A stretch of DNA of 64,000 nt from Bolinopsis microptera (Eukaryota > Ctenophora > Tentaculata > Lobata > Bolinopsidae): the NCBI RefSeq assembly GCF_026151205.1, contig NC_087073.1, positions 7,089,001-7,153,000 on the forward strand, written 5' to 3'. The translations under genes and the position numbers were made by a program. Below are positions 19,254 to 53,844 of the stretch, one piece after another. Position 1 is the first letter of the stretch. Each line of letters begins with the position of its first letter. The notes under the pieces were generated by a model. The model did not search any database, was not told the DNA's origin, and saw only the letters and a program-made list of their open reading frames with translations.

Positions 19254-21150
19254 CTAAGAAAGATATAAAAGATAAATAAAAAAGATAAAAGATAGATAAA
19301 CGAAAGATATATGATAGATATAAAAGAAGAAAAGATAGATAAAAAAGATAAAATATAGATAAACGAAAGATATATGATAGATATAATTTAAGGTAAAAGA
19401 TAGATAAAAAGGTAAAAGATAGATAAACGAAAGATATATCATAGATATGAAAGATAGATAAAAAAAGATAAAAGATAGATAGAAGAAAGATATATGATGG
19501 GTATAAAAGAAAGGTAAAAAAGAATAAAGATAGATAAAAGAATGCCCATTCCTTTAATACACACTTTGTATTACATTGAACTTGTTTAAGTTAGGGTTAT
19601 GATATTCAGGTGTATACGCCATATTTGTGGTTATGTACCAAGAAATTATATATATAGATATCACCGCAGCCTTGAGGGCGGTACTAAATATTGCTCGCGC
19701 GTGCCACTAATGCCACTAATTAGATGATCATTTACTAAGTTTTATAAACCACAGGCGTAGGTTGACCTTGGAGTGCTCTGAGGAATCTGTGTGGAGGGGA
19801 TCAAGTCTGATATTCTAACATCAAAGTTTCCGGGGCAGAGTTCAATGATCAAGCACGTCAAAGGCTTTACTGTAATCGAGCAGGAGCAGTAGGGAAATTT
19901 GTTTCTTATTCAGAGAGTGTAGTATAGAATTTTGGGCATTGAGCAGTGCATGTTCACACGATCTTCCTGGCCGAAATCGGTATTGATTTTCGAAAAGAGA
20001 ATCGTTCTTATCTAAAAATTCTAAAACACGAGCATGCATAAGTTTCTTATAAATTTTCGAGAATGATCCCAAAAGAGAGATCGGCCTATAATTAGCTACT
20101 TCCAATTTTGAACCACCTTTGTGGATAGGAACAACTTTCGCAGTTTTTAGAGCATTTGGGAAGGTATCACTGGAGAAAAAAAATAACTTCTTGCGGTTGC
20201 ATGCCGCCTCAAGCCAGGGTAAGATCCAAGGCTTTGGGTCAGCTCTTTCGAATTTTCTTCTCGAACTGTCACGCTTCAGGAGGTATGCAGTATTGTAGTG
20301 TTTCATGTACGTTTGATAGATGGAATTGTATTGTTCATCAGCGCACGTTGAGGAGGTAGCATCATCCCAGGTCTCACTTACAATAAGCTCTTTGAATTTA
20401 GCATGATTAGCTTCGTTAAATACGCGGGCTTCTAATTTCAAGCTAGTGTTGTTGTTCTTTACACGTTGACTACGGAATCGCTCGTTCAAACTAGGTGTGG
20501 CTCCTAAACTAATGGTCGTGCTAACCGCGAGATGATCTGACATATCCAACGTCACGATATTACAACTAATAACGTTGGTCACGTGATTAGTAAACACGTG
20601 ATCAATAAGCGTTGCACTGTGGTCAGTTACCCTGGTAGGCTTGGAGACAGTCTGAAATGCAGACACTGCCTGAAAAACGAGTTTCGAAAAGTCGAAAATC
20701 AATTGAATAAATTTATAACGAGGTTCGTGAATATCGAATGTCAGGAAATAAAAAGTCAATGAATGTACGAATAACTCTCTAAGCTAATAACTCCTGAGGA
20801 GCAGGTCTTTAAAGATTCGACATCAAAAAAACTATGAGCAGTAAGATTTGAAATTACCCCTCTGTTCCACTTCAGCTGATCCGTTTGTTGTTTGGTTTCC
20901 CTTGCTCCAACTCACTGTAGCTTATGCTGTTAATCCCGTGACTTAACAGGTGACTCTTGACCTAAAAAAGATAAAAGATAGATAAAAAAGAAAGATAAAA
21001 GATAGATAAAAAAGAAAGATAAAAGATAGATAAAAGATATTAGATAAAAGATAAATAAAAGATAGAAATAAAATATGATAAAATATAGATAGAAGATAGA
21101 TAAATGATAGATAAAAGATATATAGTAGGTAGATAAAAGATAGATGAATG
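19254..21150. repeat. GATA/AAAGATAGATAAA simple-repeat tracts flanking a LINE relic
   Basis: Two tracts built from AAAGATAGATAA (about 19254-19550 and 20950-21150) start with the same lead sequence, GTGACTCTTGACCTAARAAAG (about 19243 with an extra CT, and 20948). They sit on either side of the LINE remnant at 19842-20759 in the same orientation. A weaker related tract lies at 15440-15540. The tracts explain the long Ile/Tyr/Leu frames on the minus strand, which are not genes. Confidence 0.8.
19842..20759 (-). pseudogene. CR1-group LINE ORF2 fragment with internal deletion
   Basis: The minus-strand frame reads the end of the APE endonuclease (ATLIDHVFTNH and DMSDHLAVSTTIS, the IDH and SDH blocks), the linker ADPKPWILPWLEAACNRKK, then jumps directly to the RT fingers (VVPIHKGGSKLEVANYRPIS, FRPGRSCEHALL, LLLLDYSKAFDVLDH) before a stop. 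Compared with the intact ORF2 at 33680-37339, about 180 residues between KKLF and the SSDTFPNALK block are missing, the N-terminus is gone and the frame stops before the YADD catalytic box. It is a dead copy of a related but distinct subfamily. Confidence 0.85.
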
Positions 21151-24075: not shown

Positions 24076-25045
24076 CTAAAAGCAACATAATACAATAGTA
24101 GTTGTCTTCTTTAGAGAAAAGGAGAAAATTTTAACAAATCTAATACATTCTTTCTTACACATTTCACCTAATAAATATTTAAACTTGTGCATATTCCTAA
24201 TATGTGTAAGATTACTTGCCTTTCTAGGAATAAGTGAGAAGAAATTTATCTTAACAGCAGGAAAAACCTGTTTTGTTAGGATTAAAAGATCACTAATATC
24301 TTCAAATATACGTTTAATATTAGAATCTAGAAGCAAATTTTCGACATCATTTCCCCCAACTTGAAGAAAAACGGTTGAGACACTTGAGGTGTTGTATTGT
24401 TTGGCAGTCTTTTCAACTTCATCGTATATATCACATGCGTGCGCTCCAGGCCGGCAGACTACTTTAAGGTTTCTTCTACGCTTGGAAAGTGTGTCTATTT
24501 TCAGGCTCTTGAGTAGGGAGCTGCCAAACACAAATGTGTCAGGGTATGTGGCATCTTTGGTAGTGATGGCTTCAAGGGGGTATGAGGTTCTTAAGAAAGT
24601 TGTGGGGAGAAGAGGTAAATGGGGGATAAGAGATAACAGCAGGTTCTGCGATAAGGGCTTCTTTTGGTGGCAGCAGACATCGGAAGGTGACTCTGTACCG
24701 GACTCCTCTTTCATTCTTTACTTCTTTGTCTCCAGCATGCAATGTGTTTCGTGGTAATATAATTGCTGGAAGCCAGGGAGCATCGTAAATATGCTCTGGG
24801 GAGTAAAAGTGAAGTACTTGACGGAATTCGTTTTGTCCAGGGAGATATTGATTTTCTGAGTTGCACCAATAGAGAGTGTTGAGATTGGTGCGTCTGGATC
24901 AAGGCATTATTCATCATCTTTATGCAGAGGAAGATGACATACATCGGTGCTGTACCTGTTAACTAACATGGAGTTTAGCCCCTCACTGGTGGTCGACCTC
25001 CCACTGTGAAGCTTCTGTTGTACCCCTGTATAGTACAAACTAATT
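24076..25045 (-). pseudogene. Decayed LINE ORF1: AlkB-like dioxygenase plus SGNH hydrolase
   Basis: The upstream part (about 25015-24715) reads EGLNSMLVNRYSTDV, then LPLHKDDE (HxD iron ligands), PISTLSIGATQKI, SIFTMLPGFQQLYYHETH (distal His), and after one frameshift ERGVRYRVTFR (the paired Arg of AlkB-type 2OG-Fe(II) dioxygenases). A TAA also interrupts it after the DDE. The open frame 24714-24076 continues with an SGNH/GDSL hydrolase: FVFGSSLLKSLKID (block I), VSTVFLQVGGNDVENLL (GxND block III), ending before the Asp-x-x-His block. The order AlkB then SGNH matches the intact ORF1 at 38168-39760, although the sequences have diverged strongly. This is a broken copy of the same kind of LINE ORF1; no attached ORF2 was seen. 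Confidence 0.75.
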
Positions 25046-26476: not shown

Positions 26477-27540
26477 GGGGTCCTTTCCGAAACGGTACTG
26501 AAGTCAAAAATGGTACTTAAGTAAAAAGTTAAGCAAAAAGTATTTTCGAAATGAGACTTAAGTGCAAAAACTTAAGTCATATTTCGCACTTAAGTATTTT
26601 TACTTAAGTAGAGAATTTTACCTAAGTACGTACTTAAGTGCGGTATTTATCACTTAAAATGTAAGTATGGTCTAGAGGTTACTTAAGTGCCTAAATTGTA
26701 ACTCTAACTCAAAATATTAAAAGTAAAACAAGTTTTTGAAAGGTTGCAAACTAATAGTATAATTACAGAATTATTTTCTCCCTAAGCGGATAACCACTGT
26801 CGCCTATCAGCCATCCAGTGTAGCCGCGGTTTAACTGGGAGCAAATTGTGCTATTGTTCCATATCGTGCTGTCGTGTACCGAACCGGGCCACTTCACTGT
26901 GCATGACGTGATTTCCTGATTCATCGAGCATATCAGCTGTACGTTAATCGAATGATATCCTTTGCGATTCACATAAATCTCCTCGTTTGATTATTATTTG
27001 AGTTCCATCAATTGCACCAAGACAACTTGGGAATTGACCATAGTCCCAGAAACCATCCTTAATAAGACTTAGTCTGCTCGAATCGTCAACTGTCAGAAAC
27101 TGCACAAAATATCATTTAATGCTTTTGATACCCGAACAATTATTTTATAAATGGATGATGGTGCTATCCCATAGTTCGATAATGTGAAGAGTTTGTAGGG
27201 AACTCCCAGAACCAAAGAAACTAAGCGCTACTTTTTCAGCACAACAAGAGACGCGTTCAATAAACTGTAAAATCTCAAACAGAACGCGCATCACGATTGT
27301 ACAAATGGTCAGAGTTTTAGTGCGAGTCTTAGCGCGGCTTTCACACGTGCACTTAAGTTGCACTTGAGTTGATTTTTGAACGCGACTTAAGTACATTTTT
27401 GTACTTAAGTCTCAAACTTGAAACAGAATAAGTAAACTTTGGGAAATACATAAGTAGAGTTTCGGAAACACTTTCACTAATTCTACTTAAGTCGACCATA
27501 CACATAAGTGCCACTTAAGCGTTTTTTCGGAAAGGACCCC
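26477..27540. mobile_element. PIF/Harbinger element, about 1.06 kb, degraded
   Basis: The termini are inverted: GGGGTCCTTTCCGAAAC on the left and its complement (TTCGGAAAGGACCCC) on the right, each bordered by CAG (26474-26476 and 27541-27543), a 3-bp target duplication as used by PIF/Harbinger and relatives. Both subterminal regions carry many copies of the palindrome ACTTAAGT, plausible transposase-binding sites. Inside on the minus strand lies a Harbinger transposase fragment. A second enzyme gene (the Myb-like partner) is not seen, so this is an internally deleted or eroded copy. Confidence 0.75.
26763..27130 (-). pseudogene. Harbinger (HARBI1-like) DDE transposase fragment
   Basis: The frame reads MNRKGYHSINVQLICSMNQE, VKWPGSVHDSTIWNN, GWLIGDSGYPLREK, matching the DDE_4 transposase of PIF/Harbinger: the N-R-K-G-x-H-S-x-N-V-Q strand, the second catalytic Asp in GDSGYPL and the K-W-P-G-S-V-H-D-S block. 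Just upstream in another frame is DYGQFPSCLGAIDGTQIII with the first catalytic Asp (G-A-I-D-G-T), separated by a one-base frameshift. The third acidic residue and C-terminus are missing. HARBI1-type genes descend from this family, but here the frame is broken and lies within its transposon ends. Confidence 0.85.
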
Positions 27541-29476: not shown

Positions 29477-31261
29477 TCATTGCAATTTCCGCCAATATCT
29501 CTTGTCATAACTCAAATTACGGAGATAATGCAGGTCAAAGATATTATTTAAATAAAGATTTCTTTTACATAAATCATGCACAATCAGCGAGAATAGATTG
29601 CTTTGGGGTCTTCCTCTTCTCCCTGGTAAGTCCAGTGTATTGATGGCAAAAATGAGGGAAGAAAACGCTGGTCCGTCAATAGGACCCCGCAAAACATGTC
29701 CTAACATTCTCCACCGACTACGGGCCACTTTTTCTGACAATGGTTCAGCATTGCAGCGTTTATACAAGTTTTTGTTGGAGATGACTCCTGGGTACTTTAT
29801 ATTCAAAATAGTGCGAAGATGTCTGCGGTGAACAACATCTAGTTTTTCAAGGAATATTTTGGGGACGGCCCAACAGGATGAGTTGTACATAAGAACCGAT
29901 ACGACCAAAGCATTATACAGTATTAGACGTTTGTTTAGGGGCAGTTTATCACTCCAGGCCTTCTTGTAATTGTTAAAGGCAGCATATCCCAGGTTTATGC
30001 GACGCTGAATATCAGCTTTGCTACACAAGACGGACCCTAGAGTGATACTTTTCCTCCATGCTTCATTCCCCGACACTAATTTTCCATCACTGTCGACTTC
30101 ACCCGTACTAGCTAAATAAACATGAGTGAAGTCCGTTTTGTCTTCATTGACAAAGAGGTTCCATTTCTCGAGTATAGCTGTTGCCTGGGGCAAAATAGCT
30201 CTCAAGTTGTCTTCCTCTTCATCATTGAAGTCAACATCATCAGCATATTCAGTGTCAAGTGGAAGGCCAGCAATAGTAATCGGGGGGATCGGCCTATCTA
30301 AACTGATTGTTATAGTCCATCTAAGTTCATTCAAAGCACCAGCCAAGACAAGGGTGAACAGACAGCCGGATAGACAGTCACCTTGGAAAGCTCCAAGGAG
30401 ACTTAAAAACTCGGCTGAAAGAACTCCATTTACCTTCACCCGTAGCTTTGTGTTGGACAACAACAACCGGACAATCCTCAGCTCATCCTCAGTACAGCCA
30501 CACAGTTTCAGGAGTTCAAGAATCGTAGTGCGTTTGATCGTGTCAAATGCACTAGACATATCAATGCCCATGCGATGATACTCCCATTTCTTTCTTTGGA
30601 CAACTGACAGTAGAACTCGCTGACACCAAACAATATCAGCACAAGAACGAGCGCGTTTATATGCGCACTGCCATGGACCAGTGAAGGCGTTCACTTTTTC
30701 TTCTATCCTTTTAAGAGTAGCCATAGACAGAATTTTTCTGGCTGCATTGGACAAGGTGAGTGGACGTAAATTCTTCAGAGGACCAATAGGTTTTTTTGGC
30801 TTCTGTAAGGGTGTTATAGTAGCCTCTCCAATGGAAATGGGGAAAGTATGTGTCTCGAAACAACTGTTGATGATTCCAGCATAATGTTCATGGACTGTAC
30901 TATTAGAGTACTTAATTAGCTCGTTGGGTATTCCATCGGGACCATTTGCCCTCCCATTTTTCAAGCTAGAGGTGGCTGCATGTATTTCAACTCCAGTAAA
31001 AGGGACATTGAAAGCACGTGGTAGTCCCTCAAAAGGCTCGAGAGGTTGCTCATTGCGAGTCAGCTGTTTTTCGAGATAGTCTCTAACAACAGAAGCTTTC
31101 ATGTCGTCAGATGCAATCAAACAGCCATTTTCATCATGAACACCAATCGAGTTATTAGGTGGTTTACTTTTCTGATGATGTCTTACTGCTTCAAACATTT
31201 TTCTGGAATGGTTTGTGTTAGTAATATCACTATAGGTCTGATCAGCTTGAGCAGACCTCAC
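29477..31261 (-). CDS. Non-LTR reverse transcriptase, 5'-truncated ORF
   Basis: The 594-residue frame carries RT blocks in order: NGRANGPDGIPNELIKY, PLKNLRPLTLSNAARKILS, GIDMSSAFDTIKRTTILELL (block A, catalytic Asp), LLGAFQGDCLSGCLFTLVLA (block B), the catalytic box YADD at about residues 339-342, and then VPKIFLEKLDVVHRRHLRTI and RWRMLGHVLRG, a thumb/C-terminal arrangement common in RTE-like and related LINE proteins. The endonuclease domain is absent and the frame starts after stops, so the copy is 5'-truncated. It uses target-primed reverse transcription in the intact element. The uninterrupted frame suggests recent insertion or selection. GAFQGD in place of the usual G-x-P-Q-G separates it from the CR1-type RTs in this window. 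Confidence 0.85.
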   Translation of the reverse strand: MRSAQADQTYSDITNTNHSRKMFEAVRHHQKSKPPNNSIGVHDENGCLIASDDMKASVVRDYLEKQLTRNEQPLEPFEGLPRAFNVPFTGVEIHAATSSLKNGRANGPDGIPNELIKYSNSTVHEHYAGIINSCFETHTFPISIGEATITPLQKPKKPIGPLKNLRPLTLSNAARKILSMATLKRIEEKVNAFTGPWQCAYKRARSCADIVWCQRVLLSVVQRKKWEYHRMGIDMSSAFDTIKRTTILELLKLCGCTEDELRIVRLLLSNTKLRVKVNGVLSAEFLSLLGAFQGDCLSGCLFTLVLAGALNELRWTITISLDRPIPPITIAGLPLDTEYADDVDFNDEEEDNLRAILPQATAILEKWNLFVNEDKTDFTHVYLASTGEVDSDGKLVSGNEAWRKSITLGSVLCSKADIQRRINLGYAAFNNYKKAWSDKLPLNKRLILYNALVVSVLMYNSSCWAVPKIFLEKLDVVHRRHLRTILNIKYPGVISNKNLYKRCNAEPLSEKVARSRWRMLGHVLRGPIDGPAFSSLIFAINTLDLPGRRGRPQSNLFSLIVHDLCKRNLYLNNIFDLHYLRNLSYDKRYWRKLQ

Positions 31262-31710
31262 TTCAACTAATCTTCAACTACTGCTTATAACTTTATAAGT
31301 ACTTTTAATTTAAACTACTTATAATGACTACTAATATTATTACTATAACTACTACTTCATAATAAGTACTAATTGTACAGAAGGTCTTTGCCAAGCTGCA
31401 ATAATTCTGTTGGACAGCTAACATCTTTTTATAATTTGCGTCGACTTCCTCTGGTACACTTAATCCAGTATGGCGAAGTTAGCTTCAATTGCCACCATTT
31501 CGACTTGCTGTAAACTGAATGAGAAGTTTGTTTACAATTTCGTCATAAAAACCATTTAAAGCTTGATTTTGTGAATGATCTATATCTGGTCTTACGACAA
31601 CACAAAATTGTTTGAGACTATGGCATAGTCTGAAATAAAATGTAAACTCTCAATATTACAGTTCTACATTTGAATGATCAAAATTGAAGATTTGAAAAAT
31701 ATTTCATATC
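31262..31710. other. AT-rich spacer upstream of the RT gene
   Basis: ACTAC/TACTT words repeat near 31290-31370. No endonuclease remnant of the LINE could be read here. Confidence 0.4.
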
Positions 31711-32960
31711 TTAATAATTAAACTCCAGTTTCTTCAAATAGCTGATTAAATTCATTGGCACTTCGCACAGAAATCTATCCTTCTTCTTATCAGGACTGAC
31801 ATCCACGTAAAGTCTAAACAGCTGATCTGGAATGATGTACACGTCCTTTTTCAGTAGCTTATAATATTCAAAAGCCCCAACGAAAGTGGATAATAACACG
31901 TGCGAATAAACCCTTATTAATTGTTATGAAGATATTTAAAACTATAACGCAATCAAAACAAACTTTTAAATCATGCTGCGAAGATCTTCAAGCTTCCCGA
32001 ACATAGCATTTAAATCCCCTCGGTGGATTTCTCAGTTTTTCTCTGGTCTTGTTGAGGAACCCAAGCAATGGACTAAAAAAAATAAAGAAAAAAATAAAGA
32101 AATCGCTGAAAAGACACATGCTGAGTCAATGTCTCATAACAATTGTCTCTCTATCTTATTGACCGGACGGCCCTGGTTCGTCCTCTGAAGCTGAGTCGTC
32201 TGACTCGCTGAAACTATCTATAATTTGAATAGTATCCAATATCTCTACTGAAGTTTCTTCGATCTGAAAAAATGTAAGTTATCACTCGAAGTATCAAGAT
32301 TCCCCTACTAAAGCCTAACAAAGCCTCTCCAATTAGGAGTTACTACTTATAAATTGTTGAGCAAGTGCAGCCTTCAGGCGTGACTCAAACTTCACAGCAG
32401 CAGTGGGACGGTGATTTCTTGTCCAGTTTTTTGTCTGGACCTTGGACATGTTTGATGGTGGCTGGAGGCTGGCTGGCTCCAGCTTTGCACCATGTTTGGG
32501 TCTGCCGCTCTTTGTTGAGATTCGAAGAACTTTTTCAACGTTCCTGCTTTCATTTCATTACTGCGTTTCTCTAGCAATCGCATTTGTTTTGCTTTGTTGC
32601 TAGCATTCTTCCTCTTACATTCCAAATTCGTACAGCAGCCATCGTGGGATTCGAGGACATCTTCCGCGGTGCTCTTGGTACATATCCTGCATACCCTGAG
32701 CGATGCTGGATCAAACTCAGGAAATTCCATTTCGGGATTGTTCATTTTGCTGGAAAATAGTGTTATTAGAATTAGAATTAGAATCAAATTCACGTGCAGC
32801 AATACAATGATAATAATAAATAATTTTATTACCAAAAATATCCCCGATCGAAAAATAATGATGACCCTGTCATGGTATAATATATAATTTAAAGAATTCC
32901 CCGTTACACACAAGACTGCAATAATTTAAATGCTCATTCGTGGATTCCGAAGGAATAAAT
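31711..32960 (-). repeat. Copy A of a small multi-exon zinc-motif gene
   Basis: Three exon-like pieces on the minus strand: a zinc-motif exon (32745-32392); an acidic exon after TTTTTTCAG at about 32263-32165 (TIQIIDSFSESDDSASEDEP then GPSGQ and stop); and a last piece at 31899-31711 (GAFEYYKLLKKDVYIIPDQL, FRLYVDVSPDKKKDRF). Close copies lie at 40014-40905 (B) and 43920-44960 (C), and part of the same unit at 33036-33072. The high identity, including introns, marks a recently duplicated gene or mobile element. No terminal repeats or transposase were recognised. Confidence 0.7.
32392..32745 (-). CDS. Zinc-motif exon, copy A
   Basis: After the acceptor TTTTCCAG an ATG opens MNNPEMEFPEFDPASLRVCR. 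The Cys pattern C-x2-C-x13-14-C-x4-C (CRICTKSTAEDVLESHDGCC then TNLECKRK) suggests a small zinc knuckle. A basic helical stretch follows (ASNKAKQMRLLEKRSNEMK) and then a Gln/Ser-rich tail. Compared with copy C, copies A and B carry extra bases near the end that change the tail to KTGQEITVPLLL and a stop. The upstream Leu/Ile-rich part of the open frame is intron. The function is unknown. Confidence 0.5.
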   Translation of the reverse strand: MNNPEMEFPEFDPASLRVCRICTKSTAEDVLESHDGCCTNLECKRKNASNKAKQMRLLEKRSNEMKAGTLKKFFESQQRAADPNMVQSWSQPASSHHQTCPRSRQKTGQEITVPLLL

Positions 32961-33679
32961 ATTTCAGCACAAACATCATCATCAACAAAATCGTCCTACC
33001 AAAGACACGGTTCCATGGGAAATGACGTCATTTCCCAAACTTTTAAATCATGCTGCGAAGATCTTCAAGCTTTGTTTGTTTGTTTGGGGACTGGTTTGTA
33101 AGCCAGCCAATGTTTACGAATATAATATTAATAACTTTATTACATAATCATAAATATATATCATAAATAGATCAAATCTGAAACACAAATTTGCACGCAG
33201 TTAATAAATTTATTAAAAAAGAAAATGAAAAAAAAAGTTTATTGATAAAAACAAAATATGGAGCACTCTGTGCTTCCAACAGCCTTTCAGACTCGCGCTA
33301 AGTTTGTTAGGGACTGATTTAGGATATCGTAGATAATGCTATGCCATGCCATTAGTTTGGATATGTAGTGTTTGTGATTGTTGAAATAAATTAATTACGG
33401 TTTGTGCTGATAGGAAAATAGTGATAGTGGGGAATGTGGCAGTGTAAATATGGACCTGGAATTTAGGATGTGTGGCTTATCCATTAATATTAGTTGCCGC
33501 TAGTCTGTGATCAGTTTGTTCTGGTTTTTTTGTGTGCAAATATATATTCATAGTTTATTTTTGTAATATTATATAATATGTAGTACTTAATAATAACCAT
33601 ATGACTAATAACTGATTTACTAATTAACTAATTAACTAATTCACTAAACTGATATAATGACCGTTGTGTCCAGTAACTT

Positions 33680-36600
33680 TCAGACACGTTGTGACCTTCT
33701 TAGACCTGGAATATTATGTAATAAGAAACTGGGCCACGTGTCATCGTCATTTTCACTCTGCAGGTTCAAGAGCATGCGTTTTGTAGCCGATTTAAAAAGG
33801 TTTATGGAAAAAAGTGTTGGTAGGGTGCTTACATTTGCATTTACAGCATAAATTGAGAGTAAAGGTCCTTTGAAGAACATCGAAGATCTGAAATGTGTGG
33901 TGTTGTACTCGGCTAACCAGGATGCTGCAGTCACGTGATCTGAGTTTGCAGTGGGTGCATTTTCTGGGATAGTCATACAGATTTGTTGAGGGACTGAGCT
34001 GCGGAAATGTTTGATTCGGTGCATGAGAATTAGTGTGTTTTTTACAATAACACTGTGCACCGTGAGTATACCATTGTTATTGAAAAATTGTTTTGTGTGT
34101 TCTGGCAGTCGACCGTCTTTGTAAAAGTAATTAATGTGACCTGGCATTACTGCCCTGATACCCTGTTTTTGTCGTGAGAAGAGTGATTCAATGTGATTTT
34201 TTGCTGCAAACCCCCATACAATTGAACAGAAGTTTAAATGCGATTGAACAAAACTTTGATATATCTGTAGCCTTATTTGAATCGATAGGTGACGTTTTAT
34301 TTTATACATAATTCCTACATACCGCATCATTTTTGATCTAACAGCTGCTATATGCTTAGACCATGTTAGTTTATCATCCATTATAACGCCAAGGAACCGT
34401 GCTTCCCTTTTACGTTCTAATTGTGTGTCTGCAATATGAATATTTGGAGTATTATCAGTATTTCTAACACCGAAAAGCATATAGCAGGTCTTTTTTAGAT
34501 TAAGTGCAAGTCCATTACAGTCAACCCAGCGTACAAACTCGTGGGAGAATTGGTTGAATTTTTGTATAACATCGTTTGCATTTTTGCCTTTTATTATGAT
34601 GTTTGCATCATCAGCGTAGAGTATAAACTTTATCATACTGTTGATATTTGGCATATCATTGATGTAGATTAGGAATAACAAAGGTCCCATAATACTGCCC
34701 TGTGGAACTCCGTATGTAATAGGTTTAAGAGCTGATTTAATACCATTCAAACATACATATTGCTGACGTGTGCTCAGGTAGGATTTAAACCATTGCAAAG
34801 CTTGCCCACGGATTCCATAGTGCTGGAGTTTGTCAATCAATACATCATGAGACAAAACGTCAAAAGCTTTACTAAAGTCGACTAGGAGTAATAGAGCAAC
34901 TTCCTTTTTGGCAAGGGAATTCAGAATCGTGTGTTGAGCATCCAAAAGAGCATGCTCACAGGATCGGCCTGGCCGGAAGCCATATTGCCCTTCAAAGAGC
35001 GAGCCTTTCTTGTCAAGGAAGTCCATTACTCTATTATGCATAAGTTTTTCATACAATTTGGAAAAGGTGCACAGCAAAGATATGGGTCGATAGTTAGTGG
35101 CGTCGGATTTGCTGCCTCCTTTGTGAATTGGTATAACTTTAGCTATTTTGAGAGATGATGGGAAGATACCTTGACTAAATGATGTGTTAATGATTATGGA
35201 CAAGACTTTACAGAAGGAGGGGCAGTCTTTTACCATTTTTAGGGGTTCAATTTTAGTGTCTTGAGTGGATTTATTCTTAAGCTTGCTAATAATTTGTTCA
35301 ACTTCACTTTCGGTAGTTGGTCTTACGAACATAGACTGCGAAGCTGGGCTGCTAAGGTAATGTTTAAAACCCCCTGGATCGAATACAGTACGCGCGCTGA
35401 TCGCATCTTTGATTTTTGTGGCAATGTTGGAGAAGTAAGAGTTAAAGTGCTCAGCTACATCACTGTCACTATTTATGATATTTCCGTCGGCGTTTTGGAG
35501 TTTAATTTTGTTATGAGATTTAGATTTTCTGCCAAGTAGAGTGTTGATCAGCTGCCATTGTTTCTTTGAACAATCTTTATACTTATCAAATTGTGTTTTG
35601 TAGTATTTGTCTTTTGCCTTATTGACGTGCTTGTCGCAGAATGCCTTATGCTTTTTGTAAGCCTTGTAGTTTTCCTCCGTTGGGTCCACTATTTTGGCAT
35701 GGAATAATTTGTTTTTACGAGCACATGCAATTTCAAGCCAGGGTAGCATAAAAGGTTTGGGGTCCTGCCTTTCACATTTGCGGCGCACATGATTGGTTTT
35801 CACTGGGTATGCCTCATCATAATGCTGACCGTATATTTCAATAAATTTGTTATATTGTTCATCAGCACAATTTTCACGTGTGACTTCCTCCCACATTTCG
35901 GATCCAATTAATTCTATAAATTTAAGGTTGTTCGACTCGTTAAACATACGTTTTTCAACATTCATTCCATGGTCGACTCTGTGTCGTTTGTTTCTACTCC
36001 CTGCAATGTGGCTGTATTGCCCAAGTGAGATAGTAACAAGAGTGGCTAGATGATCAGACAGGTCAACAGTAAGAACATTGCAGCTGTGTGTGTGTTGTAC
36101 ATTATTGCTGTAAACATGATCTATAAGAGTGGCACTGTGATCAGTGATACGTGTGGGACGTGAGACTAGCTGAAAGAAACCGTATTTGGTCATAGTTTCA
36201 ATCAAATTTTGACAGTGTTTGTCAGTATCATAATGTGTAAGATCTACATTGAAGTCACCGACTAATATAGTATGTTTTCTCGAGTGCCTTTCCATGCCGT
36301 GTAATAGGGAGTCAATGAGTTTGTTAAAATTATCAGGATTTTTTGATGCTGGTGACCGATATATATTGACGATTATCTTTGTTTTGTTAAAGCCTTTGCA
36401 GTTATGGAGTTTTACCAACATGAATTCACCACTCTTGTCTGTCACATCAAAGTTTTGGGGAAAGAATTTTTCAATATTTTCAGACTCGCATACGCGCGTA
36501 TTGATATAAATTGCTAAACCCCCACCACGACCAGAACTACGTATTGGATCTCGTAACAGTGGTTCATAAAATCCCTCAAGCACTAGGTCATTAATACCAT

Positions 36601-37339
36601 TAGGAAGCTTATCCTGCAAGAGATTAGTCTCGTTAAAACAAAGGACATCATACTTCGAGTACGTGAATATATCTTCTCTTAATTTGTTTACGTTTTTAAG
36701 AAGTCCCCGTATGTTTAAGGTAAATATCTTAAGATCACATGCTCCTGACGAACTTACATTGGTCGGCTCCATGTAATTGCAGCTAACTAAAATATCAGAA
36801 ATCTCATTCCAATATTCGAGTTCCTGATCTTGGTCAATTGTATTTCCTATTTCGTTAATCAACTGATAGCGATCGTAGGGATTGTGGATTATGCCGGTGT
36901 GAGTATGTGTATGTAATGAGTATAGCTGATAGCAATGTACATAGTATCCCGGGATCATATTTTCACAGCAATTTCTGCATCCTAAAAAGTCGGAGTGACA
37001 TTTGGTATGTACTTTAGATTCGCACCAGTGGCAGGTTTTCAGGTTGGCGGGGGAGTAAATCCAGCCATTACAGCATGTGCATTGAACTTTAAATTTAGGA
37101 CCTATGACGGGCCCTTGTCTCGGTGGCTTTGCCGAGGGGCATGCATTTACTGGTAAGGCGCTGGAAATACAGTCATAACATATCCAGGCAGAGCCAGAAT
37201 CTGCAATTATTTTTGCCTCAGACTTAGATAACTTCATGCATTTCATATGTTTTATTTTGTCGCAGTGACTGCAAATTAGGAACGAACGTGCTTTAGGAAT
37301 ACGTGTATTACATTTGTTGCAACGCTGAGATTCGTTCAT
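33680..37339 (-). CDS. LINE ORF2: PHD fingers, APE endonuclease, reverse transcriptase
   Basis: The frame has 1219 residues. Residues about 7-57 form a PHD-like finger (CNKC...CSHCDKIKHMKC...CYDC); a second Cys cluster lies at about 86-125 (CTCC, CHWC, CRNCC). The APE endonuclease runs about 200-430: LKIFTLNIRGLL, DVLCFNETNLL (catalytic Glu), HTILVGDFNVDL, ATLIDHVYSNN and DLSDHLAT. RT follows at about 720-1000: NYRPISLL, YGFRPGRSCEHALL, LLLVDFSKAFDVLSHD, YGVPQGSIMGPLLFLIYIND and the catalytic YADD at 908-911, then FLGVIMDDKLTWSKH. There is no RNase H. PHD-type fingers in CR1-like proteins are known from published work on these LINEs. All catalytic residues that I can check are present. The protein nicks target DNA and reverse transcribes the element RNA in the nucleus. 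Confidence 0.92.
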   Translation of the reverse strand: MNESQRCNKCNTRIPKARSFLICSHCDKIKHMKCMKLSKSEAKIIADSGSAWICYDCISSALPVNACPSAKPPRQGPVIGPKFKVQCTCCNGWIYSPANLKTCHWCESKVHTKCHSDFLGCRNCCENMIPGYYVHCYQLYSLHTHTHTGIIHNPYDRYQLINEIGNTIDQDQELEYWNEISDILVSCNYMEPTNVSSSGACDLKIFTLNIRGLLKNVNKLREDIFTYSKYDVLCFNETNLLQDKLPNGINDLVLEGFYEPLLRDPIRSSGRGGGLAIYINTRVCESENIEKFFPQNFDVTDKSGEFMLVKLHNCKGFNKTKIIVNIYRSPASKNPDNFNKLIDSLLHGMERHSRKHTILVGDFNVDLTHYDTDKHCQNLIETMTKYGFFQLVSRPTRITDHSATLIDHVYSNNVQHTHSCNVLTVDLSDHLATLVTISLGQYSHIAGSRNKRHRVDHGMNVEKRMFNESNNLKFIELIGSEMWEEVTRENCADEQYNKFIEIYGQHYDEAYPVKTNHVRRKCERQDPKPFMLPWLEIACARKNKLFHAKIVDPTEENYKAYKKHKAFCDKHVNKAKDKYYKTQFDKYKDCSKKQWQLINTLLGRKSKSHNKIKLQNADGNIINSDSDVAEHFNSYFSNIATKIKDAISARTVFDPGGFKHYLSSPASQSMFVRPTTESEVEQIISKLKNKSTQDTKIEPLKMVKDCPSFCKVLSIIINTSFSQGIFPSSLKIAKVIPIHKGGSKSDATNYRPISLLCTFSKLYEKLMHNRVMDFLDKKGSLFEGQYGFRPGRSCEHALLDAQHTILNSLAKKEVALLLLVDFSKAFDVLSHDVLIDKLQHYGIRGQALQWFKSYLSTRQQYVCLNGIKSALKPITYGVPQGSIMGPLLFLIYINDMPNINSMIKFILYADDANIIIKGKNANDVIQKFNQFSHEFVRWVDCNGLALNLKKTCYMLFGVRNTDNTPNIHIADTQLERKREARFLGVIMDDKLTWSKHIAAVRSKMMRYVGIMYKIKRHLSIQIRLQIYQSFVQSHLNFCSIVWGFAAKNHIESLFSRQKQGIRAVMPGHINYFYKDGRLPEHTKQFFNNNGILTVHSVIVKNTLILMHRIKHFRSSVPQQICMTIPENAPTANSDHVTAASWLAEYNTTHFRSSMFFKGPLLSIYAVNANVSTLPTLFSINLFKSATKRMLLNLQSENDDDTWPSFLLHNIPGLRRSQRV

Positions 37340-38167
37340 AGAACTATGAGATAATGTATTATATTCGTTAGTATTATAGTTATATTATGATATATTTAAG
37401 AGAGTATAGACTTACTATTAATACAGAATATGATAATAATAACGTGACCTAGTCAGATACTTCTAACGAAGACTTTCAGTCCTGTGTGTAGAAAGTACCG
37501 TGACTTATCTACAGTAATTAAGTAAACTTCACCTTTACCTTTATGATTGACCTTTAACTTCTCTTCTATTACTTGATGGCAGCAGCTCACCGTGCATGAG
37601 CCTAATTTCCATATGTACAGTAATGTATGTGTCGAATGTTCAGAGTCAAATGTACAGAGTCAAATGTACAGATCAGTCAAATGTACAGAGTCAGATGTAC
37701 AGTAATGTGTGATGTATGTATAATGAGTACTGTGTAAATATCTGTGTAGATATCGTGTAAATATTGCGTCGTCGTTGTCTGAGTACGGCATGAGGTTAGG
37801 AATTAGATAATATGAAATTGTTATGATGTAGGGACGTGGACTATTATCAAGCAGGGTTTATTTCGCGTTTTGCTGATAAGGTGTGATAGATAAGGTGAGA
37901 AGGTAGGGAATCTGGATAAGGGAAAAGTTCATTTAAGTAGTTGATTGTATTATGTGCTTATGTGCTTTGTGCTTTGAATTTGATTTAAGTTTCTAATTTT
38001 GATTTGAAATGACGGAAAATTTGGTAATATAGTAATAGTTTGTTCAAATAAGTTACGTTTGTTTGATTAATGAAATTGTTTGCGACTCAGCGCGAGTCTG
38101 GAAAGTTGTTCAGGATTCGATATTTTTGTCATGATAATTTGACATTAAGATATAAAATACGTCGTGC

Positions 38168-39760
38168 TCAGGTGCCAAAGTGGCCAGAGATTGGATAAGA
38201 TATCATACGTTTAAAGTGCTCACGTAGAGGTAGGGGTCCACGCCTGAACCCCAGTCCAATGAGCACACAGTTTACCCAGCAATCTGATAATACACTCTGT
38301 CCAATATAGTTAAGATGTAGACCGTCACGAGCGAGGTGAGCGAGACTAAAACTTGAGTTGTCGAAGAGTCTGAAGTTGTCATGGTGAAGGGAGCACTTAA
38401 ACATGAGTTCATTAAGGTACTGGATAATGTCGTTGTGGGTGTTGAATCGGTCAGCATGTATCGATAGTGGACTGACTGCATCGAATAAGAACATAGTGCG
38501 CGGGAACTGTTCTATGAAACTTCTGATGTGATTATGCAGCAGGACGGCACTCGCTCTGTTTTTCTGGATATCGTTTATGCCAGCACTTATGAGTACAATG
38601 TCGGCTTGCTGAATCGATTCCCGGTGTTCCTTTAAGTCGCGGAGGAAAAATAAGTTTTCCCGGAACGCTATGACAGGTGAACGAAATTGAGAACAGTCAA
38701 AATTACAGTTTTTGCTGTCAGACAGTATCAGCACTCGTTTGGTCTGGTTCACTTTATGATGGGGTAGAGGTCGCAACTGATGGCTGCTAGATTTTCTGGA
38801 ATGTGCCGAGGCCAACTGTCTAAAGGTTAAGCTGATTCGAGGACCTTCAAAATCCGCCTGAGTTTGCGGAGGAACAGCATGGTCAAAAAGGTCCTGCGAT
38901 TTTCGCGTCATAGTGTAACAGTCGCCGTGTTGAACTGTCACGGTTTCATCGCGATACTCGCCTGGAGGACGTCTACGAAAAACTAAATCCCTTTTACCCC
39001 CCAGGGAAATGGTAAGTATAGTGCTGTCGGGTACTATACACGATTCATCATCGGAATGAGGAGGTATACACGAGACGTGTGATTCATATTTGGTGATCAT
39101 GCAGCTATTGAAATCCTTATAGTTGATGTTGTTGGTCTTGCACACATCATCAACTGCTACAAGTATTTCAGCAAGGTACGTCTCAGGGTCTAATTGCTTT
39201 GCCCTGTGGTACCCTCCTAAATACTTGTAAGGAGCATCGCCAAAATATGCAACCTTTCTATTCGAGAAAACTTTATCATAGGTTAATTCAGAGTCCAATC
39301 TCTTAAAGTCAAACCTCTTCAGCTGGTCACCAGTTTCGAGCTTGGAGAAGGGCTGTTCCACAGTCTGGACCGGTGTTGGTGGTGCAGGTATTTCGGGGAG
39401 GGTGGTTGTAGGTTGAGTAGGAGGGTGAGCAGAATGGTCACGTAGAGACTGGACAAGGGACTGTGCTTCACTAACGGTGTTCTGGAGGCCGGTCATCGCA
39501 TCAGTGGACGATCTCGAAAAAATTTGAGTTAGAGAGATAAGTTTGTCAGTAGTTTCGGTTAATGTAGAGGTACACTTATGACTGTCAAGAATGTGTGCAC
39601 GTAGCATTTTCTGCTTGGATTGCTTGCATAACTGAAGGTCATCTTCAGTCGCTCCAAAGAGCAGCAATTCACGGTCGAGTTGAGGTACAATGAGTTTATC
39701 GACCAATTCCAAACAGGTTGCAGTTGAGAAACAAAACGGGCGTTCCGTCGATTCAGTCAT
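38168..39760 (-). CDS. LINE ORF1: AlkB-like 2OG-Fe(II) dioxygenase fused to SGNH hydrolase
   Basis: The frame has 530 residues. Residues 1-110 are helical (a probable oligomerisation region), followed by a Pro/Thr linker (111-135). Residues about 150-316 match AlkB-type dioxygenases: VAYFGDAPYKYLGGYH, MITKYESHVSCIPPHSDDES with HxD ligands H235/D237, STILTISLGGKRDLVFRRR, distal His H294 in DLFDHAVPP, and the Arg pair R308/R314 in RISLTFR. Residues about 340-490 are an SGNH/GDSL hydrolase: VLILSDSKNC (Ser349), ISAGINDIQ (N396/D397), ARDGLHLNYIG (D479/H482). Esterase-type ORF1 is known in CR1-like LINEs; AlkB demethylases repair alkylated bases in DNA or RNA and occur in some plant RNA viruses. 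An inferred role is removing methyl lesions or marks from element RNA or its cDNA. All visible catalytic residues are intact. Confidence 0.88.
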   Translation of the reverse strand: MTESTERPFCFSTATCLELVDKLIVPQLDRELLLFGATEDDLQLCKQSKQKMLRAHILDSHKCTSTLTETTDKLISLTQIFSRSSTDAMTGLQNTVSEAQSLVQSLRDHSAHPPTQPTTTLPEIPAPPTPVQTVEQPFSKLETGDQLKRFDFKRLDSELTYDKVFSNRKVAYFGDAPYKYLGGYHRAKQLDPETYLAEILVAVDDVCKTNNINYKDFNSCMITKYESHVSCIPPHSDDESCIVPDSTILTISLGGKRDLVFRRRPPGEYRDETVTVQHGDCYTMTRKSQDLFDHAVPPQTQADFEGPRISLTFRQLASAHSRKSSSHQLRPLPHHKVNQTKRVLILSDSKNCNFDCSQFRSPVIAFRENLFFLRDLKEHRESIQQADIVLISAGINDIQKNRASAVLLHNHIRSFIEQFPRTMFLFDAVSPLSIHADRFNTHNDIIQYLNELMFKCSLHHDNFRLFDNSSFSLAHLARDGLHLNYIGQSVLSDCWVNCVLIGLGFRRGPLPLREHFKRMISYPISGHFGT

Positions 39761-40013
39761 GTAGAAAGGTAAACTTACGCTTCAAGGAGGGCTACGGTGG
39801 ACTTATGTGGAAGGAGGGGCCCAATTAAATTGGGGCCACCGAGCCTAGGGGTCTCTGTTATCTGTAGTGTTGTAGTCAGTGTGCGTAGTATTTGCGTTTA
39901 AGCCACGTCACGATGAGCTGCTGCACTGTCGGCTTATCTATTTAGCAGCAAGACTAGATAACAACATAATGTAATAAAATGTTTGAGAAGTGAATAAAAT
40001 GTTTGAGAAGCTT

Positions 40014-40905
40014 CCCGAACATAGCATTTAAATCCCCTCGGTGGATTTCTCAGTTTTCCTCTGGTCTTGTTGAAGACCCCAAGCAATGGACTAAAAAGAA
40101 ATAAAGAAAAAATAAAGAAATCGCTGAAAAGACACATGCTGAGTCAATGTCTCATAACAATTGTCTCTCTATCTTAAAATACTATTGACCAGGACGGCCC
40201 TGGTTCCTCCTCTGAAGCTGAGTCGTCTGACTCGCTGAAACTATCTATTTGAATAGTGTCCAATATCTCTCCTGAAGTTTCTTCGATCTGAAAAAATGTA
40301 AGTTATCACTCGAAGTATCAAGATTCCCCTACTAAAGCCTAACAAAGACTCGCCCAGATTGGGCTCTCCAATGAGGAGTTACTACTTATAAATTGTTGAG
40401 CAAGTGCAGCCTTCAGGCGTGACTCTAACTTCACAGCAGCAGTGGGACGGTGATTTCTTGTCCAGTTTTTTGTCTGGACCTTGGACATGTTCGATGGTGG
40501 CTGGAGGCTGGCTGGCTCCAGCTTTGCACCATGTTTGGGTCTGCCGCTCTTTGTTGAGATTCGAAGAACTTTTTCAACGCTCCTGCTTTCATCTCATTAC
40601 TGCGTTTCTCTAGCAATCGCATTTGTTTTGCTTTGTTGCTAGCATTCTTCCTCTTACATTCCAAATTCGTACAGCTGCCATCGTGGGATTCGAGGACGTC
40701 TTCCGCGGTGCTCTTGGTACATATCCTGCATACCCTGAGCGATGCTGGATCAAACTCAGGAAATTCCATTTCGGGATTGTCCATTGTGCTGGAAAATAGT
40801 GTTATTAGAATTAGAATTAGAATCAAATTTACGCGCAGCAATACAATAATAGTAAATAATTTTATTACCTAACATATCCCCGATCGTCATGATATCTCTA
40901 TTATA
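40014..40905 (-). repeat. Copy B of the zinc-motif gene, split by the LINE
   Basis: The sequence starts CCCGAACATAGCATTTAAAT immediately after the LINE target duplication and continues like copies A and C. The adjoining 5' 37 bases of the same repeat (ACTTTTAAATCATGCTGCGA...) lie at 33036-33072 on the other side of the LINE. It contains the acidic exon (about 40190-40288) and the zinc-motif exon (40784-40431). Confidence 0.8.
40431..40784 (-). CDS. Zinc-motif exon, copy B
   Basis: The frame starts MDNPEMEFPEFDPASLRVCR and has the same Cys pattern as copy A (CRICTKSTAEDVLESHDGSC, with the second-cluster C replaced by S at one position) and the same basic helix. It ends KTGQEITVPLLL like copy A. 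The upstream pyrimidine-rich TTTTCCAG acceptor is conserved. The function is unknown; near identity to the other copies shows recent duplication. Confidence 0.5.
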   Translation of the reverse strand: MDNPEMEFPEFDPASLRVCRICTKSTAEDVLESHDGSCTNLECKRKNASNKAKQMRLLEKRSNEMKAGALKKFFESQQRAADPNMVQSWSQPASSHHRTCPRSRQKTGQEITVPLLL

Positions 40906-42179: not shown

Positions 42180-43920
42180 TGAAGATAATCTAGGTTTGAT
42201 CATAGTAGAAGATCTATCAAAACTCTTGTATGGAACTGTATAAATTGATAAAAGAAAGTTTTTATTATATAATACATTATACTGACTTAGGCCTAGCAAA
42301 ATAATACATTATCACAATGACTTACCGATGCTTGGCTATATGGGGTTCCCTATTTTTCCAGGGGAATCCTGTTCCTTGTCTTCCTTTAAAACAACAGATC
42401 GAACAATAATACTGGATTCTTGGCATGACTATAAAAGAAAATATTATATTATAGTAATATTCTATTATAGTATTTATAGTAATTAAGAAATCACTAAATA
42501 TGCAAAATCACTATTACAGTAATGGATGTTATGTGTTTATTGTAATCAATCAATTAATCAATGAATAATGACACAAAAATCATCACACGTCATAAGGAAT
42601 ATTTCTACAAAAATTAAAAATTTGAATAAAATAAATATTCAGATCTGTACAGTATACTCTTAGACCCAGTAATAAATATTTGCCCAATTTATATACTTTC
42701 CACTACTATATAAGTTAATAAAACGTTTCTTTGCAACGTGTGAATTCCACCGAAGATATTCAATATGATTTTCTTTATTATAGCACAATTCATTCCGTCA
42801 ATTCTTCCTAAAACTTCATCAGAGACATACCAAAAATAACCACATTGACAGATTTCTTTGAAATCATATCTTTCTTAAATCATATTAGTCCAACTTTAAA
42901 ACTTAAAACTGTCTTAGAATTTTTGACATCTGGTAGTCCCTACATTAGACGGCCAATCCATTGGTATGTACGCGGCCTTACCCAGGCCTGTAATAAATGG
43001 GGAGTCCCTCTTAGGACGACCAGTGCTAGACACTGTTTACTACTGACTGAATGGAGACCTACTTTACTCTTTGGATTGGTAGAACCTGTCTGGTTACATG
43101 AGCATTGGAGCTAGTAATATATAATTTAAAGAATTCTTCGTTACACACAAGACTGCAATAATTTAAATGCTCATTCGTGCATTCCAAAGGAATAAATATA
43201 CAAGTATAAGTTGGACATAGATTGTATGACCTCGCTGCGCTGAAACTATACAGTGTTAAAGTTCGAACAATGGATTGTATAGTAAATTATCATTTTTTTT
43301 CTTCGGAGAACATGAGAAAGAAAGAATAAAGAATAAGGAATAAATCCTGTCCGTTTAAAATACTTCCATCACGGTATATTTAGATAATTCTTAACGTTTG
43401 TTAAATTGTTTAATAATTTTGAATTGTTTAATGATTTCTACGATACATTAATCAAGTACATTTATCGGATCATAGCCTTACAAACAGTTAAAAGGCAACT
43501 TAAATTAAAATTATAAAGTGTCTACCCTCAAGGTGTCTTCACATAACTCTACTTCAGTGATAATTACAGAACAACAATTAGAAGTTAGCACCTGCACCCC
43601 TCCCGAGAGAGAGACCACCGTGTCACAAGAAACACGTTAAAACTAAAATTAAAATTTAAGCTTGTCTTTTAATTCATAGTGTTATTTATATTATCGTTTA
43701 TGTTATTATTATATCGGATCTTAATAGAAATAGGCGGTATCGACTGTTTAAGCATCAAACCTTGCAATTGGTAATTAAAGGCGTAGAAATTGTTATATCT
43801 GCTAGGGTAGGTAGCCATTTTTGAAATAAAAACATGACATGAAGAAAAGCGGAAGAGCCTTACTCACTTTGGAGTACTCACTCACATAGTGTATTCTTCA
43901 TAACTTAAGAAATAGTTTAA
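42180..43920. other. Spacer; left member of a 410-bp duplication
   Basis: About 43110-43530 (from ATATATAATTTAAAGAATTC to AGGCAACTTAAATTAAAATT) recurs at 44972-45385, about 1.86 kb apart in direct orientation; a shorter piece also recurs at 32880-32960. A plus-strand 89-codon frame at 42845-43114 has a protein-like stretch (IHWYVRGLTQACNKWGVPLR) but no recognised family. Otherwise nothing is seen. Confidence 0.6.
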
Positions 43921-44960
43921 AAGCTGATCTGGAGTGATGTACACGTCCTTTTTCAGTAGCTTATAATATTCATAAGCCCCAACGAAAGCGGATAATACCA
44001 CACAAATAAACTCTTATTAATTGTTATGAAGATATTTAAAACTATAACGTAATCAAAACAAACTTTTAAATCATGCGGCGAAGATCTTCAAGCTTCCCGA
44101 ACATACCATTTAAATCCCCTCAGTGGATTTCTCAGTTTTCCTCTGGTCTTGTTGAAGACCCCAAGCAATGGACTAAAAAGAAATAAAGAAAAAATAAAGA
44201 AATCGCTGGAAAGACACATGCTGATTCAATGTCTCATAACACTTGTCTCTCTATCTTATTGACCGGACGGCCCTGGTTCCTCCTCTGAAGCTGAGTCGTC
44301 TGACTCGTTGAAACTATATATTTGAATAGTATCCAATATCTCTCCTGAAGTTTCTTCGATCTGAAAAAATGTAAGTAAAAGTTATCACTCGAAGTATCAA
44401 GATTCCCCTACTAAAGCCTAACAAAGACTCGCCCAGATTGGGCTCTCCAATGAGGAGTTACTACTTATAAATTGTTGAGCAAGTGCAGCCTTCAGGCGTG
44501 ACTCTAACTTCACAGCAGTTTGTTGTCTGGACCTTGGACATGTTCGATGGTGGCTGGAGACTGGCTGGCTCCAGCTTTGCACCATGTTTGGTTCTGCCGC
44601 TCTTTGTTGAGATTCGAAGAACTTTTTCAACGCTCCTGCTTTCATCTCCTTACTGCGTTTCTCTAGCAATCGCATTTGTTTTGCTTTGTTGCTAGCATTC
44701 TTCCTCTTACATTCCAAATTCGTACAGCAGCTATCGTGGGATTCGAGGACATCTTCCGCGGTGCTCTTGGTACATATCCTGCATGCCCTGAGCGATGCTG
44801 GATCAAACTCAGGAAATTCCATTTCGGGATTGTCCATTGTGCTGGAATATAGTGTTATTAGAATTAGAATTAGAATCAAATTCACGTGCAGCAATACAAT
44901 AATAATAGTAAATAATTTTATTACCTAACATATCCCCGATCGAAAATTAATGACGACCCC
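43920..44960 (-). repeat. Copy C of the zinc-motif gene
   Basis: The unit contains the last-exon remnant (about 43925-44000), an acidic exon (about 44265-44362) and the zinc-motif exon (44837-44418). It is bracketed by the 410-bp direct repeat described at 43110 and 44972, which suggests that the copy arose or moved as part of a segmental duplication. Confidence 0.75.
44418..44837 (-). CDS. Zinc-motif exon, copy C (longest tail)
   Basis: The frame starts MDNPEMEFPEFDPASLRACR, has the C-x2-C...C-x4-C pattern and the basic helix, and, unlike copies A and B, continues in frame through TAVKLESRLKAALAQQFISS to SPIWASLC and a stop. Copies A and B have about 31 extra bases at this point. Copy C may show the ancestral tail, or A and B may show an insertion. 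Confidence 0.5.
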   Translation of the reverse strand: MDNPEMEFPEFDPASLRACRICTKSTAEDVLESHDSCCTNLECKRKNASNKAKQMRLLEKRSKEMKAGALKKFFESQQRAAEPNMVQSWSQPVSSHHRTCPRSRQQTAVKLESRLKAALAQQFISSNSSLESPIWASLC

Positions 44961-45384
44961 GGACCCCGTCATGATGTAATATATAATTTAAAGAATTCTT
45001 CGTTACACACAAGACTGCAATAATTTAAATGCTCATTCGTGCATTCCAAAGGAATAAATATACAAGTATAAGTTGGACTCATTTACATAGATTGTATGAC
45101 CTCGCTGCGCTGAAACTGTACAGTGGTAAAGTTCGAACAATGGATTGTATAGTAAATTATCATTTTTTTCTTCGCAGAACATGAGAAAGAAAGAATAAAG
45201 AATAAGGAATAAATCCTGTCCGTTTAAAATACTTTCATCACGGTAAATTTAGATAATTCTTAACGTTTGTTAAATTGTTTAATAATCTTAAATTGTTTAA
45301 TAATTTCTACGATACATTAATCAAGTACATTTATCGGATCATAGCCTTACAAACAGTTAAAAGGCAACTTAAATTAAAATTATA

Positions 45385-53551: not shown

Positions 53552-53844
53552 ACCGTAAATAATTTATTCCAGTGTATAACGATGGCTTTCCGGTGAAAGC
53601 AATTACTGGCCAACCTGTAGGCTCATCACAAGACAGCACCTGCACAAGGCTGTCTTCAACACATGGCTGCACTCGCAGAGTGGAACACCGCCATCCACTG
53701 AGGAGTGGCCACTAGAATACGAGGTGGCCACACCTTAGCTTGTTTGCTGAAGAAGGAAAGCTATCCAGACTTATCAGTTATGCTAAAATATATCACTGTG
53801 GTTGAAATGTCCTTCAAACGTAGAATCATGTCATCTCAAATAGG

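Follow-up and report, generated by a model that had tools for sequence, protein, structure and literature searches.

A long interspersed nuclear element (LINE) in the ctenophore Bolinopsis microptera carries a first open reading frame (ORF1) that, judged from its sequence, begins with a helix-rich N-terminus and continues with an AlkB dioxygenase of the ALKBH2/3-like type and an SGNH-hydrolase-like domain. The element lies in a 64,000-nucleotide stretch of contig NC_087073.1 (positions 7,089,001 to 7,153,000 of assembly GCF_026151205.1; hereafter the window) and belongs to a recently active two-ORF LINE, here termed family A. We regard this anatomy of the element and of its ORF1 protein (ORF1p) as practically certain. 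The features of the window copy are as follows.

33071..40010, minus strand: whole LINE copy, family A, ~6.94 kb (blastn comparison of the window with 12 related stretches)
39761..40010, minus strand: 5' untranslated region, starting with ~20-bp tandem monomers (CTTCTCAAACATTTTATTCA; monomers at 39973-40010)
38168..39760, minus strand: ORF1, 530 amino acids (open frame, Pfam matches)
39284..39760, minus strand: ORF1 residues 1-159, helix-rich N-terminus (low-confidence model) and proline-rich linker, the least constrained part (pN/pS 0.61, see below)
38813..39283, minus strand: ORF1 residues 160-316, predicted AlkB 2-oxoglutarate (2OG)-Fe(II) dioxygenase with H235, D237, E239, H294, R308 and R314 (profiles, conserved residues)
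38261..38743, minus strand: ORF1 residues 340-500, SGNH-hydrolase-like domain with S349, G394-x-N396-D397, D479 and H482 (weak profile, motifs)
33680..37339, minus strand: ORF2, 1219 amino acids (open frame, Pfam)
37169..37321, minus strand: probable PHD-type zinc finger at the ORF2 N-terminus (Pfam 22.6 bits against a cut-off of 24; C4HC3 pattern by eye)
36050..36721, minus strand: APE-type endonuclease (Exo_endo_phos; Pfam)
34382..35110, minus strand: reverse transcriptase (RT; RVT_1; Pfam)
33071..33679, minus strand: 3' untranslated region, whose end is formed by a short hairpin (CTGG..CCAG, by eye) plus a (CAAA)n tail (copy comparison)

A sequence-only reading of the window had proposed a LINE ORF1 fusing AlkB and SGNH domains in a 530-residue open frame at 38168..39760. 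The frame exists, with 530 codons and a stop, but it runs on the minus strand (39760..38168); the plus-strand reading is full of stops. The residues named in that reading are all present as written, and H235, D237, H294, R308 and R314 of the AlkB part as well as S349, G394/N396 (SAGIND) and D479/H482 of the SGNH part are kept in 10/10 family A copies. Its AlkB domain had been made to depend on a 2OG-Fe(II) profile match, and one was found above the curated cut-off: Pfam 2OG-FeII_Oxy_2 (PF13532) matched residues 176-314 with 70.3 bits (E 3.2e-19; cut-off 31.2). When the single ORF1 protein was compared with solved structures using phmmer, human ALKBH2 (4e-9) and ALKBH3 (7e-8) were recovered. 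The SGNH assignment held for its motifs (S349, GxND and DxxH); the Lipase_GDSL_2 match of family A over residues 384-488 was weak (22.1 bits, E 2.3e-4, under the cut-off of 32.9). No block II glycine of the oxyanion hole was visible by eye in families A to I described below, with SGAH a candidate in family J. For the SGNH fold, a Foldseek search with a predicted model (pLDDT, the predicted local distance difference test, ~40) gave no match at E 0.001, with GDSL enzymes among the weak matches. NCBIfam gave no match to ORF1 at E up to 1, and Rfam none at gathering thresholds.

The proposed LINE identity is borne out by ORF2, which lies 828 bp downstream of ORF1 (37339..33680) and has both an APE endonuclease and RT, giving the layout of an APE-type two-ORF LINE. 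In blastn comparisons with 12 related stretches, copies reaching both ends stop near 40010 and 33071, and their flanks differ, as expected of a mobile element. The number of ~20-bp 5' monomers also varies between copies. Target-site duplications longer than 9 bases were found in none of 8 copies tested.

The genome surveyed (G000), which contains the window, comprised 264,652,675 bases in 232 contigs, and the loci are spread over several contigs. Querying it with ORF1 gave at least 81 matches; 81 of 788 candidates were scored, so all counts from this query are lower bounds. At least 10 full-length copies at 98-100% identity were found, the window copy included, and all are open. The other matches listed comprise full or near-full rows at ~55%, 45-48% and 28-32% identity, plus partial rows; stops occur in 3/81. 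ORF2 follows ORF1 in 11/12 family A stretches and is unbroken over 1219 codons in eight of these, interrupted or deleted in three (L011, L012 and L020), and not found in L009. With 1219 open codons, nine copies have an intact ORF2, the window copy among them. A host AlkB gene or fragment lying beside a LINE by chance, or a mis-assembly, could mimic such a fusion. Nothing was found in favour of this explanation. Against it stand the full ORF1 copies at 10 separate places, the ORF2 that follows in 11/12 stretches (unbroken in 8/12), and a second lineage with identical domain order inside the window. We give an artefact next to no probability, and this multi-copy evidence rules out chance or a host gene.

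Polymorphism among family A copies was next summarized as the ratio of nonsynonymous to synonymous change per site (pN/pS). Across 10 copies, segregating sites numbered 9 synonymous and 2 nonsynonymous in the AlkB domain (pN/pS 0.06), 4 and 2 in the SGNH part (0.13), and 4 and 8 in the N-terminus (0.61). Whole ORF1 had 23 synonymous and 15 nonsynonymous sites (0.19), and ORF2 in 9 copies 36 and 28 (0.20). No stops were present among the ORF1 and ORF2 copies in these codon counts, in which site numbers are small. From these patterns the AlkB domain looks to be under purifying selection, and the enzyme domains of ORF1 look constrained at least as much as ORF2, small counts notwithstanding. Between families A and B, pN/pS was 0.27 for AlkB and 0.29 for SGNH with saturated synonymous sites; in between-family codon comparisons generally, synonymous sites are saturated or nearly so.

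The AlkB-SGNH order recurs as open frames in ten aligned families (A to J) of this one genome, and such recurrence is not chance. Two alignments were used, A1 with 9 ORF1 rows (families A to I) and A2 with 11 rows (ten families, two rows for J). Family A is 25-54% identical to the others in A1, and J 19-23% in A2. Despite this divergence, the AlkB H, D, E, H, R and R are invariant in 11/11 rows of A2, and S349, G394, N396, D397 and H482 of the SGNH part in 9/9 rows of A1. PF13532 matched 9/11 family rows at E 0.01, and Lipase_GDSL_2 likewise 9/11. The invariant ligands bear on whether the AlkB fold serves just nucleic-acid binding or structure in ORF1p. RNA binding is required of ORF1p, and a Pfam search at E up to 1 shows no other RNA-binding domain in ORF1, which would suit such a role. 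However, all iron and 2OG ligands are invariant across families just 19-54% identical to the reference rows, more than binding alone would need, and we consider a binding-only domain quite improbable.

The most canonical SGNH part is that of family J, two members of which exceed the PF00657 cut-off of 23.6 bits (24.6 and 23.8). The J motifs GGND and DGIH align in A2 with the SGNH motifs of other families, and a block I serine (GSS) was identified in J by eye. An invariant block I serine extending through family J was rejected, since A2 pairs a different J serine at that position. Pairwise alignment of the J and A SGNH parts was limited to the block V region (E 3e-5), and the J domain may thus have been captured separately. 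The block V Asp reads Asn in families G, H and I, where esterase activity may consequently have been lost. In ORF2, sub-threshold PHD matches were seen in B, G and H; families C, E, F and I gave no match at E 0.05 (the frames used for E and I start late in ORF2). Two further relatives lie in the window.

24076..24984, minus strand: decayed family J ORF1, in which one stop and one frame change interrupt the AlkB part, followed by a 213-amino-acid SGNH-like frame with GSS, PGAH and GGND (32.4 bits with the stop as X)
19824..20657, minus strand: ORF2 fragment with an internal deletion, from family I, a third lineage that carries AlkB (95% identity to L037)

The remnant at 24984..24076 is 64% identical to an intact J ORF1 over 311 positions. 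Treating it and the fragment at 19824-20657 as one element was rejected, as the fragment belongs to family I (95%) and the remnant to J.

Gene trees of ORF1 and ORF2 were compared across families. Family I ORF2 shares 63% identity with F and 40-43% with H and G; in the tree it groups with F (support 92/97). In contrast, the ORF1 of family I shares 43% identity with G and H against 27% with F, and clusters with the former two (100/99). Family C ORF1 is 56% identical to that of D and grouped with it (88/91). Its ORF2, however, shares just 25-26% identity with A, B, E, F, G, H and I, 33% with D over 370 amino acids and 39% with the N-terminal part of J ORF2, and has no PHD match. This suggests that ORF1 has passed between LINE lineages, with at least two exchanges suggested by percent identities and branch support rather than a formal topology test; C in the ORF2 tree and J in the ORF1 tree form long branches.

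The extent of AlkB-carrying elements was gauged with domain searches. PF13532 gave at least 151 matches in the genome (150 of 587 candidates scored); all of the 150 rows parsed are over the cut-off, with 146/150 in frames of at least 300 amino acids and stops in one row; host ALKBH genes may be among these. All of the best 150 of 754 candidates scored with the AlkB-domain query matched (150/150). Of 25 SGNH rows picked from 116, 15 had a same-strand AlkB row within 1.5 kb among the matches listed, 4 further rows had one in the AlkB-domain query list, and 6 had none among the matches listed. Among the RT rows listed (best 150 of 6502 candidates), at least 28/150 had a same-strand AlkB row lying 1-7.5 kb upstream; three control arrangements each yielded 1. 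The AlkB-to-RT distance was mostly ~3.0-3.5 kb, and at least 27/150 AlkB rows had a listed RT downstream. No relatives of ORF1, ORF2 or alignment A1 were found in the viral contig set, nor of A1 in the genome contig set.

Other arrangements were also seen. AlkB domains occur within frames of 2225-3388 amino acids (G000 C10:16875843, C3:14441692, C12:8338315, C9:15868177, C12:2469580 and C9:11092850). In L049, taken from C10:16875843, the AlkB domain is bordered by tandem repeats, proline/serine/alanine-rich ones and others, and the 666 residues read gave no SGNH match. SGNH parts 45-49% identical to that of ORF1 lie at G000 C1:18539005-18539577 and C8:8269542-8270123 in frames of 986 and 1019 amino acids, with no AlkB match in the same search.

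The likely subgroup of the AlkB domain was assessed by comparing ORF1 family profiles with solved structures. ALKBH3 (1e-26) and ALKBH2 (1e-21) were closest, followed by E. coli AlkB (3e-5), ALKBH8 (1e-4) and ALKBH7 (0.6); ALKBH5 and FTO gave no match at E up to 10. The acidic residue E239, four positions downstream of the first His ligand, is kept in 11/11 rows. By closest profile match and the acid at +4 from the first His, the domain falls in an ALKBH2/ALKBH3-like subgroup, a placement judged from profile E-values rather than a tree. We take D135 of E. coli AlkB to stand at the same spacing from its His ligand as E239. D135 lies near N6 of the 1-methyladenine (m1A) target base; D135S raises activity on 1-methylguanine (m1G) and D135I allows N6-methyladenosine (m6A) as substrate (PMC7968990). 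AlkB removes m1A and 3-methylcytosine (m3C) and restores reverse transcription through blocking modifications (PMC7968990).

We hypothesized that ORF1p would coat the element RNA and that its AlkB domain would remove alkyl or methyl groups from the base-pairing face (m1A, m3C and similar), perhaps also from single-stranded cDNA. Since marks of this type stall reverse transcription, a demethylase tethered to the ribonucleoprotein (RNP) would leave a 6.9-kb template that target-primed reverse transcription can read. As the RNA of a LINE has to be copied end to end, block clearing by ORF1p would be the simplest benefit of such an enzyme. The SGNH part would probably act at lipids or membranes, as in known LINE esterases. 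We put the chances that an RNP-tethered AlkB clears RT-blocking lesions of the m1A/m3C type from the template at about even.

The main rival is that AlkB erases host silencing or surveillance marks, either m6A on element RNA or N6-methyladenine (6mA) and 5-methylcytosine (5mC) on new DNA copies. For an orchid Ty3/gypsy element, m6A demethylation by its AlkB was shown in vitro, and a role in epitranscriptomic control, bearing on host surveillance, was proposed (PMC9289625). ALKBH2 and ALKBH3 are also able to oxidise 5mC (PMC7968990), and a PHD finger in ORF2 would hint at an interaction with chromatin. Nevertheless, the profiles match ALKBH3 and ALKBH2, neither ALKBH5 nor FTO appears at E up to 10, and E239 is invariant, whereas loss of the corresponding acid (D135I) is what lets AlkB act on m6A. 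In human cells, m6A is reported to help L1 and its eraser ALKBH5 to lower L1 mobility (PMC7873242), which argues against a simple m6A-eraser role, though host biology may differ. We consider mark erasure rather unlikely. The sequence-only reading had offered both ideas; protection of RNA or cDNA from alkylation appears to fit the ALKBH2/3 relationship better than erasure of silencing marks. A further alternative is that the enzyme protects the DNA stage or the host target site by repairing alkylated single-stranded cDNA or DNA at the nick. This appears improbable, as the domain resides in ORF1p, presumed to package RNA in known LINEs, and not in the DNA-handling ORF2p.

Several observations weigh against template clearing by an AlkB enzyme. 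We know of no evidence of m1A or m3C on ctenophore LINE RNA, though no search for it was made. PF13532 is absent from families C and D even at E 10, where just a sub-threshold PF03171 match was obtained; all AlkB motifs are present in both, and their AlkB domains are 48-51% identical to that of the window. Single-sequence AlphaFold models were of low confidence (mean pLDDT 38 and ~40) and did not confirm the AlkB double-stranded beta-helix. Finally, likeness to ALKBH2/3 does not fix the substrate, given the 5mC oxidation reported for these enzymes (PMC7968990). We give slightly less than even odds to a broader proposal: that the AlkB-SGNH module is a widespread ORF1 type in this ctenophore, shuffled between RT lineages, and would clean the template, making it the first enzyme of ALKBH2/3 type encoded by a transposon to repair RT-blocking base methylation and let reverse transcription reach completion.

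Elsewhere in the window, one repeat unit occurs three times (31811-32962, 40008-40886 and 43914-45061; ~90-94% identical), two of them flanking the LINE. It contains a short conserved frame (MDNPEMEFPEF...) with no Pfam match above the cut-off. Two other LINE RT frames lie on the minus strand at 29477-31273 and 48229-50208, with ~23% and 32% identity to ORF2 over the part that matched, and a DDE_Tnp_4 transposase fragment at 26763-26990, also on the minus strand. A long near-perfect palindrome of 1357 bp spans 8244-9600 and is 97% self-inverted; sequence related to it recurs at the edge of the window (63639-64000). A 42-bp tandem repeat of ~70 copies with extreme GC skew occupies 50571-53552.

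The AlkB ORF of the orchid (Phalaenopsis) Ty3/gypsy element (PMC9289625) is the nearest published precedent found, closer than the plant RNA viruses cited in the sequence-only reading. Both are retrotransposons with an AlkB-superfamily dioxygenase; the orchid enzyme likewise keeps its metal and 2OG ligands and is retained through several subfamilies. The orchid element is, however, a plant long terminal repeat (LTR) element with a separate, extra ALKBH5-like ORF of measured m6A activity, whereas the present one is an animal LINE with AlkB inside ORF1p ahead of an SGNH-like part and ALKBH2/3-type by sequence. Fungal mobile elements also carry 2OG-Fe(II) nucleic-acid dioxygenases, but these are TET/JBP rather than AlkB and reside in DNA transposons and Helitrons (PMC12730594). 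Human ALKBH3 and ALKBH2, the best profile matches among solved structures, share the HxDxE..H..RxxxxxR pattern but are stand-alone cellular enzymes rather than one domain of a retrotransposon protein.

Among LINEs, in the type IV (esterase) ORF1 of CR1/L2 elements such as zebrafish ZfL2-1, an SGNH-type domain likewise accompanies an N-terminal region, and an APE/RT ORF2 lies downstream (PMC3905857, PMC4120745). The ZfL2-1 esterase is reported to bind phospholipids and to be hydrolytic (PMC3905857), and the type to occur in just two exclusively vertebrate groups (PMC4120745). In contrast to these elements, family A has no block II glycine that could be picked out, and AlkB stands between its N-terminus and SGNH-like part, where type IV has a coiled coil followed by the esterase and no other enzyme domain. 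The terms 'alkb' and 'oxygenase' occur 0 times in the main texts of PMC3905857 and PMC4120745. Shared with CR1/L2 LINEs are the APE endonuclease and RT; some of their groups have a PHD finger at the start of ORF2, a probable feature here, and exchange of ORF1 between lineages has been reported there too (PMC4120745). LINE ORF1 types I to V comprise RRM, CCHC, coiled-coil/RRM/C-terminal domain (CTD), PHD and esterase forms, without AlkB in the account given by PMC4120745, making the AlkB-SGNH ORF1 new as a variant within the open-licence PubMed Central (PMC) literature searched (Repbase and most subscription papers lay outside). No description of AlkB in a LINE was found in that literature, consistent with the sequence-only statement that no well-described LINE is known to have this pair.

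If the proposed function is correct, LINEs are able to encode a nucleic-acid repair or demethylation enzyme of their own, and an enzymatic type is added to the described kinds of ORF1. This makes it testable whether base methylation of retrotransposon RNA limits reverse transcription, and whether elements counter it. The finding, with at least 150 AlkB-domain hits over the Pfam cut-off in a single genome, also suggests that comb jellies, reportedly supported by one study as sister to other animals, host an unusual assortment of retroelements.
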